Shown in pieces: positions 50,340-64,000 of a stretch of 64,000 bases of DNA. Position 1 is the stretch's first letter; every line of letters starts with the position of its first letter. A program made the translations under genes and the position numbers. The stretch comes from Verrucomicrobiales bacterium (GTDB lineage: Bacteria > Verrucomicrobiota > Verrucomicrobiia > Verrucomicrobiales > DEV007): the NCBI GenBank assembly GCA_016795505.1, contig JAEUHH010000005.1, positions 1 through 64,000 on the forward strand, given 5' to 3'. Under the pieces are notes generated by a model, which was given only the letters and a program-made list of their open reading frames with translations, was not told where the DNA came from and searched no databases.

Positions 50340-53300
50340 CTAAAAAACTTTGGGCCCTTGTGGGTCGCATGCGATTGCTGCTTCGATGCGTTCACGACCA
50401 GCAGAAGTCAGTCGCTGGATACCGAATATCCTCGCGATTTCGATAGCTGGATCGCCTTTGCCGCGAAAGGCGTGGGCAGCATAAATTTCCTCTGAGGGAA
50501 TGCAGTCAAGGGGGCGTACGGAATCTTCCCCAACCGGCACCCGAACCGGAACGGGCATTGCGCATTGATCTGCCTGCATCCAGATAAAATTCCCACCGAT
50601 GGGATCTTCGCGGAGATGGAAATGCGAATCGACAAGTTCGAGAACTCGATGGCGGATGAGACGTCCCGTTCTCATAAAGCCATGAGCCCGCGCGACTCGT
50701 TGGATGAGTAGTTCGTCGGCGATTGGAGCCTCGCACTCCAGAGCATGCCGGACGAGATCCAAAAGGACCGGGGTATACGTCTCCTTCTGGAAATCATCAG
50801 GTCGTATCCGTTCGGCAAATTCGCTGAAGTCACTGACGCGGTAGGTCGTCCTACCATCCTCGCCAAACAGGGTCGCCTGATTCTGCTCGATGGGAAATGC
50901 GTCGGATGCGGTGTTATCAGTTGGAGAAACGGATGAATTCTCTCCTTCTCTGGCCTCGGACCTGTTCTGTGTCTCCGAGGTCGCCCGATGGCTGCGGTCG
51001 GCCTCCAGCAATTCTCGCAAAGCCTTGTCCAATCGCATGGCTTCTCCGTTGGGATTGACAAACCAGTCCGTTGACCAGACTCGAAGCAGGGTCCAGCCAA
51101 GGCCCTCCAGCACTGCGGCTCTGACTTTGTCGCGGTCGCGGGCCGTTGCCGCCCGATGGTAGGTGGCGCCGTCGCATTCCACGCCGACGAGGTAGTCCCC
51201 GGGCCGGTCCGGATGGACGATACCCAGATCTATACGGAAACGGGAGACCCCTACCTGTGGAATGACTTCCCAGCCCCGATCCCGGAGCCTTTGGGCGACA
51301 GCCTCTTCAAACGGGGAGTCATACCCGCCCACCGAGCCTTGTACGGCCTCGCCGAGAGCGCGGGGACCACGTTCGGCAAATTCGAGGAAGTGCTTCAGGT
51401 CCCGGACAGCTCGCGCACTGGTGCGGTTCAGATCGATCATGGATGGATCGAACGAAGTAAAGACGACCATTTCCCGACGGGAGCGGGTGACAGCCACATT
51501 GAGTCGTCGCTCACCGCCGTCGCGGTTCAGAGGACCGAAATTCATGGACATGGTCTTGGCTCCCGGCTCCGTCGGACCGTAACCGATGCCCAGCAAGATG
51601 ATATCGCGCTCGTCGCCTTGGACGGTCTCAAGGTTTTTGACGAAAACCGGTTCGTGGAGCGTCTCGTCGAAGAAAGGCTCGATCTCCGGATGCTGCCGTC
51701 GTGCTGCGTCGAGAAGGTCCTCGATGAGACCCTGCTGGTCGGTGTTGAGGGTGATGATGCCGATGGTCTGTTTCGATTCCCGGAAAGCCGGATCGAGCAG
51801 GCGTCTTATTGCCTCATCAACGATGGCCTTCGCCTCGACCTGATTCGTGCGGCCCGTGCCTTTGGCGTAAAGACCGTCGACTTTGCGCCAGATGACGGCA
51901 CTTTCCCGCGTCTCCGAAGCCGGAAAGGTAATGAGGTTGCCATCGTAATAGCGGAGGTTTGAAAACGCGATGAGGCTTTCGTGGCGGCTCCGATAGTGCC
52001 AACTGAGACTGCGTCGAGGAATGCCGACGGCGAGGCATTCATCCAGAATGCTTTCGAGGTCTTCTCCGACCGTATCGTCTGAAGACCCTTCCGTGGTGCC
52101 CCGCTGGAAGAAGTTCGTGGGTGGCATCTGTCGGGGATCGCCGGCGATGACAACCTGTCTCCCTCGGGCGATAGATCCTACCGCGTCCCAAGGGGCAATT
52201 TGTGAAGCTTCATCGAAAATGACCAGATCGAACATCTGCAATTCGACCGGGAGATACTGGGCAATCGATAGGGGACTCATCAACATGCACGGTGCCAGCA
52301 GCCCGAACGATTCGCCCATTTCGCTGATCAACTGGCGCAGTGGCTTGTGACGACGCTTTTTCTGAAGTTCGTGTTTGAGGATGCCGTAGCCGTCCTTCTT
52401 ACCCACGGCGGACTTATCCGGTAGGCGGCCACCAAGAGCCGTACGGGCATACTCGATGGAGAGCTCTGCAACGCGATCATCGAGGGAGCGGAATTCCTCA
52501 ATGCAGTCCATGTGCTCAGCGGACACAAATTCGCGCAAGATCGGATCGCGATCGATCATCTCGGCGGCGAACCACTTGGCGTAGCCTGTCAAAAAGGCCG
52601 CGTCGATCGAACCCTTGTTGAGACTGCCACTTTCGATCGCGCAAACGACTGGCTCCAGACGCCACTGAATGGCCTCTCTGCGGACCCGGCGCCAAGCGCA
52701 CCAATTCCGCAGTCGGGCCTCATGAGTGACGATGTTCGCGCACGCCTCTCGCAGGGGCGCCAGGACGAGACGATCAGGCGCGGAAAGGCCCGCCAGTTCG
52801 GAGAAAGTCGCGTAGCTCGCTTGGAAGTCATTCAGCACGCCCTCCAATCGCTCCGTTGCGGTAGCGATCGAGCCCGTGGGATCGAGGAGTTCGTTGGCAT
52901 CGACGACGAGCTGCCGCACGGTCCCCTTCAAGGCCACCAGTTCCTCCGGGGAGCCCGAGAATCGGGAAAAGCCCTGCGACAACGTGCCGGCGATGGCGAT
53001 CGCCTCCTCGATGGCAGCCGACTGGGTGCGGAGATCGGCATAGCCGGGCAGGCCAATCAAGAGTGGTGCCAGGCTATCCATCTCTGCGAGCAACCGCTTC
53101 AAGCGTTCGAGTCTGGGCATATCGGCAGCCACATCAGGAAGCGTGCTAGTGCCGCCGGCGGCTGCGAGGCTCTTTGTGACCTTCTTTTTGGCAAAGTTGG
53201 CGAGCAACCAGAACTTGCCGCTAGCCGCCTTCCACTGGGTGGCGATCTCATCGGGATCGATTCGCCGGGCGGCATCTTCAGCATAGCGGACCGAAAGGCC

Positions 53301-56162
53301 GTTCTCTGTCTCCCGGTAATCCTTGAGCTTTTGTAAATACGCCTCGGCTGCCTCGAGGCGGTCATACAGGTTGGCAGAAAAGACGAAGCCAAAATCCTTG
53401 CGATGCGTCTGGAGGATGGCGCGCGCGAACTGCGCGAGCAGTTGCGCGTCGGAAGATCGTTCGATCGACCTTTGGATCTGCAATTGCTCCATGACATGTC
53501 CCGCAGCTTCGGTGACGGAGTCCACCTTTGCGAGCATGAGCTTGGCGATGGCAAGCAGTCTTTCTTGCCAGCCGTTCGACCATTCCGTTTGTTCAATGAT
53601 GGAGAATTGGGATGGGGAGTCGCGGTAGGCTTCAAAGTTGAGGTCCAGGCGGTGGGCGACTTCGCGGAGCTTTTCGAAATCCTCCCGGCTGTGGGTCGTG
53701 CCACTCGCCCAGGAGAGACCGGGTGTGGCCGGGCCAAAATCCCGAGTAACCAGACCGATCGCCCTGTGTATCGACAGTCCGTTCGGATGACGCTCGTGGA
53801 GGTGTGTGCAAACGAGGTTCAAGCGATCTCGGAGCACTCGGAGTCGGTTTGTCTCCTCGTCCCACTGCTCTTGGGTCAGGTCTCCCCGGACATTCCACGC
53901 ACGATCGAGTTGGCGGAGGATTTCCAACTTCGAAGCCTTGTGCGAATGGACCTCCAGGCAGAAGTCGCCCAAGCCCCTTTCTTCCAAGCGTCGATAGACG
54001 ACATCGAGAGCTGCCATCTTCTCCGCGACGAACAGCACCCTTTTACCCTTGAGGATGTTGTGGACGATCATGTTGGCGATCGTCTGCGACTTCCCCGTGC
54101 CAGGCGGACCGTCGAGGACAAAGTCGCAACCGGCCTCGGCGGCCACTACAGCGGCAAGTTGGGACGAGTCCGCCGGGAGCGGGGTGAAAAGATGGGCCGG
54201 ACCGGTCACCTGATCGAGATCCCCTTCCGTGGCGTCCCAAGCATTGCCCGAATAGCCTTCCTCTCCGCCCTCAATGAGATGTTTCACCACCGGATTGGCG
54301 ATGAGTTGATCACGCCGGTCTACGAGGTCTTTCCACATGAGATACTTGGCAAAGGAGAAGGTGCCGATCGCAGTCTCCGTGGTAACCTCAAATCCCGGGA
54401 TTTCCTTCACCACGAGTCGCAAGCGGTTCCAGATTCCGACTACATCAATGCCGCTTTCGTCCTCGGGCAGCTCACCGTCGAGGCCTGGGATTGCCAGATC
54501 GAAGTCCTGACGCAGTAGCTCAAGCAGCGTAAGATTGAAGCGGGGCTCGTCTTCGTGCGCCGACATGGTGATGCCCGATCGCGCGCTCTTCCGCGTCAGT
54601 TTGACCGGGTAGAGAATCAGAGGGGCGCGATAGACGCGGGTGTCCTCGGCACCTTTCTTCCAATTAAGGAATCCCAGTGCCAGAAAGAGCGTGTTCGCTC
54701 CACCCTCCGATATGTCAGCGTTCGCCTTCCGGTAAAGGTCGACGAGTTCTGCTTCCAGTTTCTTAGCTGTCAAAGGAGATAACACCTCGTGGGAATTGAG
54801 GGCATCAGTCGCGTACTGCTGGATCAGGTCCGTCTTGTTGCTCTGCTGATAGAGGTCCATGTCCCGGCCGCCAGCCTCGAACTCCGGCACTGCAGAGATG
54901 CGGACCGACTTCCCAGCGGCGAGGATGTCCTCCAGCAGACTCGGGTCGGGGCAGATTAGTGGTATGTGCTTGCTGCGTTCCGGGAGGTGTAGCAGCCGGT
55001 TGCGCGCCGTCAGATCGAGCAGCTTGCGTTGCCAAAGGTCGATTCGATCCTTGGCCGACTTTGGCTCGGTCGTGACTTCTATATCGAAGCCAGGCAATTG
55101 AGGTGCCTCTTCGAGAGCCTCCGAGGGCAAAGGCGCGGATGTCCCGTCGGACGCAGCGGATGAGGCCTGATCGATAAAACCGAGCGGGCGGATCTTGCGC
55201 ATGCGGGCCCGCCGGATATCGATCGCCATGACGAAGTCCTCGTCATTCAGTTGCTTCCTGGCTATGTCGATTGCGGCGCTGAACGACGCCGGAGGCGATT
55301 GGGAGACCAGAGTCGTTTCGAAGACGATGATTTCCTGCAACTCGATGCGCTTCCGTATAGCCGCCGCCTCCGAGACGATCAATTGGGAAAACTCCTGCGG
55401 CTGGAGCCACACACCTGTGAAGGCGTGGCCCTTCGTCAGGATGATGATCGGGTTCAGGCCCGCCTGTTCCAGAGCGGATGCAAAAAGGGTCGCCGTGTCG
55501 AGACAGGTCGCCACCTTGTTCTCAAGGATCGAGCCAGGCGTGCGCACCTTTTGGCCCTCGATCTCAAAACTTGCCGGTGGATAGGTGTAGCTGAGCCCGA
55601 TGCCAGCGACCGATGACCAGAGGGCAGAGGCGATTTCCCAACTGCGACTGCGCGACCGTTCACCGTATCCGTCGATGCCGGCCTTCTTCCCGGCACGTTG
55701 CAGGATGTCGCTCGCACCCTTCAGGATCCTGTCCACCGCCGGGTCGTTTGGCATGCAGAAAGCAGGGAGCAGTTCAGGCATCGATCCAGAGCCACCCCAC
55801 TGGGTCTTGGACAGCAGTTCTATTGGATGTGTTGCGGAGGCGATGGGAGGACGGTCCGGTTCACCGGCGCGAATCTGGAGGACCACATGCCCGTTGACGC
55901 TCTCCACCAATTCGGAAAGGAAAGTGCCCGACAAACGGATCTCCCGATCGGAGATCCGAATCTCGGCGCCCGGACGGATCGCGTCGATCTTCCAGATCTT
56001 CTTTTCGAGGAACGGAGGGTCTGCCTCCAACGAAACGGTCAATTCGGCGAGCGGTTCCCCGCTCCCGTTTTGGACCGTCAGATCGTGGAGGATCGGAACG
56101 GCGTTCTGATGCGAGGCAAAACCGACCTTCTGAGCGACGGTCGCGTTGATGGTGGGTGGCAT
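50340..56162 (-). CDS. DUF4011-helicase-Vsr multidomain protein (Hhe-like defence)
   Basis: A 1940-residue protein. In order: N-terminal beta-rich region; transglutaminase-like part (ATCLDTATLFASAL and KGHAFTGVWL, about 215-260); DUF4011-like RIDLWQRKLLDLTARNRLLHL (about 371); SF1 helicase with Walker A LDGPPGTGKSQTIA (about 683), Walker B VIFDEASQIAPWD (about 1312), VQGDERDIILLG and LNVAVTRSRREM; Vsr-type nuclease segment FEEAVAQRL with RIDLG and VECDGATYH (from about 1616); DUF3320-like C-terminus (from about 1770). This composition matches the single-gene anti-phage system called Hhe (DUF4011-helicase-Vsr). All ATPase and nuclease motifs look intact. ATG 56162 begins MPPTINATVAQ. Confidence 0.85.
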   Translation of the reverse strand: MPPTINATVAQKVGFASHQNAVPILHDLTVQNGSGEPLAELTVSLEADPPFLEKKIWKIDAIRPGAEIRISDREIRLSGTFLSELVESVNGHVVLQIRAGEPDRPPIASATHPIELLSKTQWGGSGSMPELLPAFCMPNDPAVDRILKGASDILQRAGKKAGIDGYGERSRSRSWEIASALWSSVAGIGLSYTYPPASFEIEGQKVRTPGSILENKVATCLDTATLFASALEQAGLNPIIILTKGHAFTGVWLQPQEFSQLIVSEAAAIRKRIELQEIIVFETTLVSQSPPASFSAAIDIARKQLNDEDFVMAIDIRRARMRKIRPLGFIDQASSAASDGTSAPLPSEALEEAPQLPGFDIEVTTEPKSAKDRIDLWQRKLLDLTARNRLLHLPERSKHIPLICPDPSLLEDILAAGKSVRISAVPEFEAGGRDMDLYQQSNKTDLIQQYATDALNSHEVLSPLTAKKLEAELVDLYRKANADISEGGANTLFLALGFLNWKKGAEDTRVYRAPLILYPVKLTRKSARSGITMSAHEDEPRFNLTLLELLRQDFDLAIPGLDGELPEDESGIDVVGIWNRLRLVVKEIPGFEVTTETAIGTFSFAKYLMWKDLVDRRDQLIANPVVKHLIEGGEEGYSGNAWDATEGDLDQVTGPAHLFTPLPADSSQLAAVVAAEAGCDFVLDGPPGTGKSQTIANMIVHNILKGKRVLFVAEKMAALDVVYRRLEERGLGDFCLEVHSHKASKLEILRQLDRAWNVRGDLTQEQWDEETNRLRVLRDRLNLVCTHLHERHPNGLSIHRAIGLVTRDFGPATPGLSWASGTTHSREDFEKLREVAHRLDLNFEAYRDSPSQFSIIEQTEWSNGWQERLLAIAKLMLAKVDSVTEAAGHVMEQLQIQRSIERSSDAQLLAQFARAILQTHRKDFGFVFSANLYDRLEAAEAYLQKLKDYRETENGLSVRYAEDAARRIDPDEIATQWKAASGKFWLLANFAKKKVTKSLAAAGGTSTLPDVAADMPRLERLKRLLAEMDSLAPLLIGLPGYADLRTQSAAIEEAIAIAGTLSQGFSRFSGSPEELVALKGTVRQLVVDANELLDPTGSIATATERLEGVLNDFQASYATFSELAGLSAPDRLVLAPLREACANIVTHEARLRNWCAWRRVRREAIQWRLEPVVCAIESGSLNKGSIDAAFLTGYAKWFAAEMIDRDPILREFVSAEHMDCIEEFRSLDDRVAELSIEYARTALGGRLPDKSAVGKKDGYGILKHELQKKRRHKPLRQLISEMGESFGLLAPCMLMSPLSIAQYLPVELQMFDLVIFDEASQIAPWDAVGSIARGRQVVIAGDPRQMPPTNFFQRGTTEGSSDDTVGEDLESILDECLAVGIPRRSLSWHYRSRHESLIAFSNLRYYDGNLITFPASETRESAVIWRKVDGLYAKGTGRTNQVEAKAIVDEAIRRLLDPAFRESKQTIGIITLNTDQQGLIEDLLDAARRQHPEIEPFFDETLHEPVFVKNLETVQGDERDIILLGIGYGPTEPGAKTMSMNFGPLNRDGGERRLNVAVTRSRREMVVFTSFDPSMIDLNRTSARAVRDLKHFLEFAERGPRALGEAVQGSVGGYDSPFEEAVAQRLRDRGWEVIPQVGVSRFRIDLGIVHPDRPGDYLVGVECDGATYHRAATARDRDKVRAAVLEGLGWTLLRVWSTDWFVNPNGEAMRLDKALRELLEADRSHRATSETQNRSEAREGENSSVSPTDNTASDAFPIEQNQATLFGEDGRTTYRVSDFSEFAERIRPDDFQKETYTPVLLDLVRHALECEAPIADELLIQRVARAHGFMRTGRLIRHRVLELVDSHFHLREDPIGGNFIWMQADQCAMPVPVRVPVGEDSVRPLDCIPSEEIYAAHAFRGKGDPAIEIARIFGIQRLTSAGRERIEAAIACDPQGPKVF

Positions 56163-56364: not shown

Positions 56365-56988
56365 TCACGGCGCCATCCGGAACAGCGGGCCGGCCCAGGG
56401 ACTCGGGCCGGCGGTGCCGATCGCGGCCACGCGGAAGGCGTATTCCACCCCGGACTCCAGGTCCACCGTCCAGATCTTTGCCGCCGTGGGGCTGCCCAGC
56501 GGCTGCCATGCATCGTCCGGCTCATCGCGGCGGCGAAACTCTGCCTGATAGATGGCCGCCCCGCGCACCCGCTTCCACCGCAGGCGGATCTGGCCGGGGC
56601 GGTCGCCCATGACCGCGGTGAGCCGCGCCGGCGCCGGCAGCGTGCCCACCGGTTGGCCATCCCGGCGCAGGTCGAAGCCGGCGGATAGGATCTTCCCCGC
56701 GTCTCCGCCGCTCGCGGCATCGATGTGACTGGCCCGCTGTCGCAGGATGCCCTCGTAAGTCGTCCGGCCCGCCGCCTTGGCGGCGATGGCTTCGCGGTAG
56801 GCTGTCAGGGCGTGCTGGACCGCCATCACCTGTCCCTCCCACGTGTCCGTCGCGGCGATGAAGGCCGCCTCGTCGGGGACGGGGTCCGGAAAGTTCGGAT
56901 TATCGTCCATCGCCCGTTCATGCTTCCGCCCGATCGCGAGCAATTCCAGATCGGGCAGCCCGTTCAATGTGAGTCGTACCTTGGCCAT
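56365..56988 (-). CDS. Small fibronectin type III domain protein
   Basis: A 207-residue protein without signal peptide. The N-terminal half is helical (AIGRKHERAMDDNPNFPDPVPD, WEGQVMAVQHALTAYREAI) and the C-terminal half is an FN3 domain (IRLRWKRVRGAAIYQAEFRRRD, WTVDLESGVEYAFRVAAIGTAGPSPW). It belongs to a type of small FN3 protein I associate with Verrucomicrobiota genomes; the role is unknown. ATG 56988 is chosen. The curved AT-rich array begins 80 bases upstream, so it occupies the promoter side of this gene. Confidence 0.7.
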   Translation of the reverse strand: MAKVRLTLNGLPDLELLAIGRKHERAMDDNPNFPDPVPDEAAFIAATDTWEGQVMAVQHALTAYREAIAAKAAGRTTYEGILRQRASHIDAASGGDAGKILSAGFDLRRDGQPVGTLPAPARLTAVMGDRPGQIRLRWKRVRGAAIYQAEFRRRDEPDDAWQPLGSPTAAKIWTVDLESGVEYAFRVAAIGTAGPSPWAGPLFRMAP

Positions 56989-57068
56989 GGCAGTCGTCTT
57001 CGCCGGTTTACCCTGCCGCCGGGCGGCAGTCGGCAAAAGCATGGGGGATTTCCGTCCTAACCGCAATC

Positions 57069-57324
57069 AAAAATGTCCATTTTAAAGGAAAAAATCTGCC
57101 TTTTTATGTGGGAAAATTGATTTTGTCAGTCAAAAATACTAGTTTTGTTGTTGGAATGATCTGTTTTGCTAGCAAAACGCCTCCTTTTGCTATTGGAAAA
57201 ATAGAATGTGATAAAAGAATGACCAATTTTGACTTAAAGATGAATAAATTTGATTTGATAAATGAACATTTTTGAGTTCGAAATTGAGACTTGTGATGTA
57301 AAAATACCATTTTTACCTGCAAAA
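57069..57324. promoter_or_regulatory. Helically phased A/T-tract array (intrinsically curved DNA)
   Basis: About 23 runs of A or T (3-6 bases), alternating strands, with centres near 57071, 57081, 57091, 57103, 57114, 57123, 57134, 57144, 57165, 57175, 57186, 57199, 57228, 57237, 57248, 57261, 57271, 57282, 57302, 57312 and 57322. Counting skipped positions, 24 steps cover about 251 bases, that is close to 10.5 bases per step, the DNA helical repeat. Seen as units, it is a degenerate 21-base repeat of the form AAAA-N5-ATTTTT-N6. It is strikingly AT-rich in a GC-rich genome. Confidence 0.75.
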
Positions 57325-57589
57325 CCTTGGCTTTCTGCTGCGGCTGGCTCCGTTCCGAGAAGGGGTTTATGCGGGTGCGCTGTCAGACGGGCGGCGCCCC
57401 ATCCGCATGGGACAACCCCATCCGGGGTTGCTGGCAAAGGGACCGGGAGACCCGGAGTTTCACTCCGGGCTATTCATGGAGCATCCCTCCGGGATGCGCG
57501 TGGCGGGCGCACGGTCGAATAATGCCTCCGGGATGCGCGTGGGCGATCTCACGATTTCAATCCCTCATCATCCCATGGCTTGGCGATGC
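57325..57589. other. Gene-free stretch with short repeats
   Basis: No convincing ORF. Two copies of CTCCGGGATGCGCGTGG lie about 41 bases apart (near 57488 and 57529), and the first is preceded by GGAGCATCCCTCCGGGATGC, which can form a hairpin. This is non-coding repeat-bearing spacer between the curved array and the palindrome doublet. Confidence 0.5.
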
Positions 57590-57641
57590 GACAGGGTCTG
57601 ATCGCCGATCAGACCCGGTTTGATCGGCGATCGAACCGGGT
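57590..57641. repeat. Palindrome doublet, REP/BIME-like, ACCCGGT/TGATCG family
   Basis: Two adjacent palindromes. The first has GGGTCTGATCG (57594-57604) and CGATCAGACCC (57606-57616) with a one-base loop. The second has ACCCGGTTTGATCG (57613-57626) and CGATCGAACCGGGT (57628-57641) with 13 of 14 pairs. They share the TGATCGG core of the repeats at 2812, 17852 and 35111. Located past the 3' end of the ceramidase-like gene. Confidence 0.75.
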
Positions 57642-57711
57642 CTCATCGGAGCAGGCGGCGGAGGCGGCGGAGGCCCTTGGCGGGTCGGAGCGTTCGGTGG
57701 TGGGCGGCAGG

Positions 57712-63426: not shown

Positions 63427-64000
63427 GGGGAGATTCGCGTCATTCGCGTTCATTCTTTTCCATTCGTGTAAAGGTTTGGAAGATCTGGGGGCCGGGGCTG
63501 GGACCTCGGAAACGCTGGGCGCGACCCGATCCGGCTGGAAGATCGGAACGCGAATGTAAAGGAATGGCCGCGAATGACGCGAATGGTGGATCGAGAGGCG
63601 CGCGTTTGGGGAGATTCGCGTCATTCGCGTTCATTCTTTTCCATTCGTGTTAAAAATTGAAGGGCAGAAAGACCTGGAGCTTGAGCAACTGGGGACTTGA
63701 AAGCCAGCCATGCCGCTCCAACTCGGCTGGATGATCGGGACGCGAATGTAAAGGAATGGCCGCGAATGACGCGAATGGTGGAGGGAAACACACCCTCTGG
63801 GGAGATTCGCGTCATTCGCGTTCATTCTTTTCCATTCGTGTTAAAAATTGAAGGGCAGAAAGACCGGGAGCTTGAGCAACTGGGAACTTGAAAGCCAGTC
63901 ATGCCGCTCCAACTCGGCTGGATGATCGGGACGCGAATGTAAAGGAATGGCCGCGAATGACGCGAATGGTGGAGGGAAACACACCCTGTGGGGAGATTCG
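63427..64000. repeat. Tandem 181-191 bp units each with a long inverted repeat
   Basis: Units begin with GGGGAGATTCGCGTCATTCG at 63427, 63608, 63799 and 63990 (last one cut by the window edge). In each, ATTCGCGTCATTCGCG near the start is matched by its exact complement CGCGAATGACGCGAAT about 135 bases later; the flanking 20 bases pair imperfectly, giving stems of about 37 bases. Units two and three are almost identical, the first is more divergent in its loop. No coding content. The stretch 63292-63426 before it shows nothing recognisable. Confidence 0.85.

Follow-up and report, generated by a model that had tools for sequence, protein, structure and literature searches.

Tandem or helically phased DNA repeats are known from several systems. 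In plasmid iterons, displacement of the sites by half a helical turn abolishes cooperativity (PMC4980987). The sopC locus of plasmid F is made of 12 repeats of 43 bp, about four turns, which carry inverted-repeat sites (PMC6238139), and a title cited in that article refers to the SopB-mediated silencing of sopC-linked genes. BldC of Streptomyces forms a cooperative multimer on repeated AT-rich motifs and bends DNA (PMC5859096). The periodic An/Tn clusters (PATCs) of C. elegans contain runs of A and of T in phase with the helical repeat (PMC7725773), and in bacteria an A-tract periodicity of 10-11 bp is tied to curvature (PMC3431218, PMC3940949). The present work deals with an array of phased A/T tracts located upstream of an FN3-family gene in a Verrucomicrobiales bacterium (contig JAEUHH010000005.1 of assembly GCA_016795505.1). 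The stretch analysed, positions 1 to 64,000 of this contig, is referred to as the window. No published description of such arrays was found in the literature on tandem palindromes of Verrucomicrobia, FN3/collagen genes and 21/22-bp repeats.

The window array is built from 13 units of 21 bp which follow each other over 273 bp without a single indel. In the orientation of the FN3 gene, the consensus is palindromic and close to C-A-A-A-A-n6-A/T-T-T-T-T-n5; it can be approximated as CAAAAnnnnnnATTTTnnnnn and the best copies read CAAAAATGnnCATTTTTG. The units are only ~59% identical to this consensus, yet the register is perfect at 21 bp. The best conserved columns display counts of A 13/13, T 13/13, T 12/13 and A 11/13, with spacers near background. 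Six columns are at least 75% conserved at period 21, for a shuffle maximum of 2, and the column pattern is present only at this period and at its double (42). A dyad test, in which 6 of the 13 units were used, gave P=0.046. Conservation is confined to the palindromic half-sites. The column heterogeneity departs from the uniform neutral decay of a perfect repeat (P<1/5000), and such decay does not account for the contrast between the retained half-site columns and the near-background spacers.

A sequence-only reading of this DNA had reported A/T tracts phased at the helical repeat and had proposed a Fourier analysis of AA/TT spacing. This analysis produced a peak at 10.5 bp with a power of 29.3. 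Across 2,000 dinucleotide shuffles the mean was 3.5 and the maximum 14.0, about half the observed value; the phasing is beyond chance. The AAA/TTT power is 31.6 for a shuffle maximum of 15.9. The array is the strongest A/T-phased stretch of the whole window and also ranks first, with 22.6, in a 1.21-Mb sample (18%) of the 6.55-Mb genome, where the next score is 17.8. This second stretch (L026 631-991, C30), AAAAAGCTCCGACCTCGGAGC, is also a 21-bp array, with its A-tracts placed within GC-rich palindromes. For the core delimited by the earlier reading, the 13 units of exactly 21 bp give better, slightly wider limits (Table 1). That reading had taken tracts of either orientation as equivalent for bending; the tracts are not such a mix, and A and T strictly alternate. 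The A-tracts are phased at ~21 bp, as are the T-tracts, with a mutual offset of 10.9 bp which was obtained in 0/20,000 tract-identity shuffles. Such alternation is expected of palindromic units and is not needed for curvature, which argues against a plain curvature element. The strong curvature also anticipated from the tracts was recovered with an approximate wedge model: the ratio of end-to-end to contour length is 0.12 for the array. Mononucleotide shuffles give 0.88 +/- 0.07, and the median over the window is 0.94. According to the model, the bend is almost closed and no other part of the window is as curved.

A screen for comparable arrays, and for where they stand with respect to FN3-type genes, had also been proposed in the earlier reading; it revealed a class of arrays upstream of the FN3 family. 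A total of 87 distinct full-length FN3 loci was collected, 82 with enough upstream sequence. These loci are the best profile matches, with the most distant family members under-represented, and the cross-locus statistics take no account of shared ancestry. Arrays were called in the 1.5 kb upstream at a combined lag score of at least 0.5, or of at least 0.6 as a stricter cutoff of the same detector. At the former, 63 of the 82 loci possess an upstream array, with a period of 21 bp in 46 and of 22 bp in 17; the only other periods are 12 and 14, once each. At the latter, arrays are present upstream in 47/82 loci, downstream in 0/84 and in 12/1,235 random 1.5-kb segments taken from three genomes. 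The arrays contain 5-25 units located 0.1-1 kb upstream of the gene, and the palindrome is significant at P<=0.05 in 36 of the 63 and at P<=0.01 in 25. The window array belongs to this class, defined by a period of 21 or 22 bp upstream of an FN3-family gene and a palindromic unit.

The units mostly differ between loci (TTGGGAnnTCCCAA, TGTCAGCTGACA, TGAGCTAGCTCA, ACCCTAGCTAGGGT and others). Loci with proteins 78-83% identical display unrelated units of the same period. In the related loci L042, L082 and L120, the half-sites TCCGTTCG/CGAACGGA are kept at constant distances from the ATG and the spacers diverge. Across the class, helical spacing is conserved better than sequence. The window's genome has additional 21/22-bp arrays that are not located by FN3 genes, some of them before other genes with a leader made of WD/YD repeats (see below); in two relatives this background is almost nil.

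Several features distinguish these arrays from the systems mentioned above. Like the plasmid iterons (R6K, pPS10, F, P1, RK2), they are tandem repeats in the range of ~17-22 bp; protein binding is known for iterons and presumed here. Iterons, however, are direct repeats in 2-7 copies at replication origins by rep genes, whereas 5-25 often palindromic chromosomal units precede an FN3 gene here. The defining association of direct repeats with a replication initiator gene is absent from the window array, whose units are palindromic and whose neighbours are the FN3 gene, a helicase-nuclease defence gene (Hhe) and a ceramidase-like gene. Tandem repeats with inverted-repeat sites are shared with sopC/parS of plasmid F, but there a single sequence is paired with a single ParB; here the units vary by locus and no par genes were seen. 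The AT-rich motifs repeated along the window array recall the BldC operator arrays, in which the sites are direct, head-to-tail and limited to 2-4 repeats, as opposed to 26 half-sites alternating in orientation. The resemblance to eukaryotic PATCs, pointed out in the earlier reading, is limited to the phased tracts and is superficial: the class feature is the two-turn palindromic unit and not A/T richness, and the alternating 21-bp unit and the GC-rich siblings indicate another basis. Tract orientation, irrelevant in a PATC or a purely curved element, is strictly ordered here (0/20,000 shuffles). Finally, genome-wide phased A-tracts form a diffuse bias, unlike this discrete, register-perfect array of 13 units tied to a gene family.

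The explanation favoured here, in which we place about even confidence, treats the window array as an A/T-rich and diverged representative of the two-turn palindrome arrays upstream of FN3 genes in Verrucomicrobiota, and has it bound by a putative symmetric protein gating FN3 transcription. In its favour are the perfect register with conservation limited to the half-sites, the arrays at 63/82 FN3 loci and their frequent palindromes, the constant half-site positions at L042, L082 and L120, and the lack of compensatory changes within units. Protein binding and a transcriptional effect are suggested by analogy. The putative symmetric DNA-binding protein would place its copies along one helix face, cooperation from unit to unit would lead to a large nucleoprotein complex, and this complex would silence or gate transcription of the FN3 gene. 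A symmetric protein that binds cooperatively needs sites of this kind, on one face and alternating in orientation. In the window array, where the half-sites are A- and T-tracts, the DNA would additionally be bent by itself. The array ends ~72 bp before the FN3 start codon; a scan of the intervening region found no sigma-70 promoter match, and promoter and terminator scanning returned nothing.

A number of observations weigh against this explanation. No significant palindrome is detected in 27 of the 63 arrays. The unit sequence turns over faster than the FN3 gene, an outcome that a mutational array-generating process could give likewise. No regulator gene adjoins the window array and no binding protein for it emerged from the analysis. 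In favour of the explanation, at 12 of the 17 22-bp loci of the class the array and the FN3 gene are separated by an XRE gene, versus 2 of the 46 21-bp loci (Fisher 1.7e-7, uncorrected for relatedness); none is present at the window locus. XRE proteins whose helix-turn-helix regions are nearly identical can adjoin unrelated arrays: at L099/L102 the identity is 76% and the arrays are no more similar than background. Array similarity does not track XRE identity at L099/L102/L095, and the overall trend is weak (Spearman 0.35). XRE was rejected as a simple reader of the unit sequence because near-identical XRE proteins flank unrelated arrays. The H-NS-like or Lsr2-like site envisaged in the earlier reading, i.e. 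xenogeneic silencing, was rejected as well: homologues of H-NS (PF00816) and Lsr2 (PF11774) are absent from the 96.6% complete assembly, and control genomes gave matches.

A chromosomal regulatory architecture may be put forward tentatively, in which helical spacing is kept while the sequence can vary freely. Every FN3-type gene would possess its own fast-replaced array of palindromes fixed at two helical turns, read by a protein, or a pair of proteins, sensing the phased geometry or co-evolving with each array. A purely mutational origin appears doubtful. Slippage or repair favouring two-turn units would then repeatedly make arrays with little or no function, in keeping with the differing units of loci with 78-83% identical proteins, the presence of young near-perfect arrays alongside diverged ones and the further 21/22-bp arrays of the genome not near FN3 genes. 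Neutral decay would nevertheless hit all columns equally and add indels, whereas the window array keeps its half-site columns only, with 0 indels in 273 bp. Some other cause is also required for arrays to be strongly enriched upstream of a single gene family and not downstream of it.

Intrinsic curvature is unlikely as the explanation. Bending of the phased tracts would then suffice, as upstream promoter curvature or in the folding of the nucleoid, and no protein specific to the array sequence would be involved. The predicted bend of the window member is very strong, and phased A-tracts are common in bacteria (PMC3431218, PMC3940949, PMC516772). A modest excess of arrays, 11 of the 63, is also bent beyond permuted controls at P<0.05. 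However, the class median of 8.0 degrees per 21 bp is level with the 7.5 degrees of the column-permuted controls, the wedge model leaves the 22-bp subclass almost straight, and the GC-rich arrays of relatives show identical 21/22-bp phasing with no bend beyond these controls. Curvature was therefore rejected as a function of the class; a few members, the window array foremost, owe a strong bend to half-sites made of A-tracts. The promoter-curvature element, one of the options of the sequence-only reading, is not supported as the main reading on the same grounds and since bending does not need strict A/T alternation at 21 bp.

An RNA-level element, in which the array would be transcribed as part of the FN3 mRNA 5' leader and fold into tandem hairpins, is very unlikely. 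The units upstream of the gene are indeed palindromic, but compensatory changes between arms number 207 for 216 expected, many palindromes are loopless (ACCCTAGCTAGGGT, TGTCAGCTGACA), helical-turn spacing is irrelevant to RNA, and Rfam returned no gathering-level match, with sub-threshold microRNA matches only. Hairpins were rejected for want of covariation, and the absence of compensatory change within units points to protein half-sites instead. It is just as improbable that the array serves partition in the manner of a centromere (parS/sopC-like), or organises the chromosome in another way, in place of regulating a gene. Tandem palindromes at integral helical turns do resemble sopC of plasmid F (PMC6238139), but many different arrays exist per genome, often preceding an FN3-type gene, no partition gene is found among the immediate neighbours of the window array, and the FN3 gene has no relatives among the plasmids and viral contigs searched. 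The coding of heptapeptide repeats by units of 21 bp, or 7 codons, is hardly credible and was rejected, although several 21-bp arrays are crossed by long open frames, since none of the six frames of the window array is free of stops (1-10 per frame), the 22-bp subclass is incompatible with heptads and the conserved columns track the dyad, not codons.

Table 1. Coordinates of the array and of the surrounding features in the window.
Feature	Position	Strand	Remarks and basis
Array, 13 units x 21 bp	57061..57333	minus	Register and column counts, A/T alternation test
Core given by the sequence-only reading, predicted strongly curved	57069..57324	none	Spectrum, wedge model
Array-to-start-codon region	56989..57060	minus	GCCGCC/GGCGGC inverted repeat at ~57015-57028; sequence, promoter scan
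Short 22-bp repeat GATCGaaCCGGGTCTgATCGGC, far side of array	57582..57649	none	TRF
FN3-family gene, 207 aa	56365..56988	minus	ATG at 56988; family alignment and search
Helicase-nuclease defence gene (Hhe / PDC-S37)	50340..56162	minus	DUF4011, AAA_11/12, MTES_1575 nuclease; Pfam, PADLOC

The FN3-family gene has a further in-frame ATG upstream, at 57042. Its product combines a long helical hairpin and one FN3 domain with weak FN3 scores; no N-terminal domain reaches Pfam significance. The AlphaFold2 model (pLDDT 90, pTM 0.48) predicts helices at 13-27 and 40-93 followed by 7 strands, and the top Foldseek matches are FN3-domain proteins. The family is patchy: its members occur in 42 of the 289 genomes sampled from the order, a single genome having as many as ten copies, and in only 6/387 genomes of the phylum sample; several paralogues exist in the window's genome. 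No relatives were found among viral contigs and plasmids, the PHROG and BFVD matches are FN3-domain matches, and a phage or plasmid origin was rejected. FN3-family genes start less than ~300 bp from a contig end at G000:C76:46, G000:C38:46, L085, L090 and L101, which suggests that arrays break assemblies and that FN3 copy number is underestimated. The earlier reading correctly placed the array upstream of the FN3 gene; the Hhe-like gene, which it located next to the array, starts beyond FN3 at ~56162, ~200 bp downstream and on the same strand, with MPPTINATV as the plausible start of its translation.

A short open reading frame with WD/YD repeats (e.g. MPAPLTWDTPGLTWDSGLTWDG) precedes the FN3-family gene as a leader in 38/85 loci and is absent at the window. 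It also precedes other genes unrelated to the family and is apparently a shared leader or tag, a frequent companion and not a defining feature of the array class. It was further noted at L178 3992-4800 (C3), L180 18775-19660 (C9) and L028 17669-17710 (C50). Collagen-like genes (MPFDPSLPAPNSPL...) are located alongside FN3 and array loci at L026 1067-1657 (C30), L028 16312-16764, L037, L038 and L045. Motifs like GATCGaaCCGGGTCTgATCGGC are found near other arrays of the genome, at C20 (L025 9784) and L037/L038. Other repeats include 14-bp tandem repeats in the 1.5 kb downstream of the FN3 gene in five loci, three tandem arrays of the window's genome (L025 8490, L178 3610, L195 9572), whose period of 41 bp comes to about four helical turns, and, at 63532-64000 of the window, a 191-bp tandem repeat (2.5 copies, 94%) with sub-repeats of the ATTCGCGTTC type.

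The array class amounts to a large set of natural replicates, which differ in sequence almost without exception and step 21 or 22 bp in almost every case. It thereby makes testable whether a bacterium can keep the helical geometry of a binding array while its sequence drifts, and offers a clue to the function of the FN3 family, which is patchy and multi-copy and has unusual leader peptides made of WD/YD repeats.
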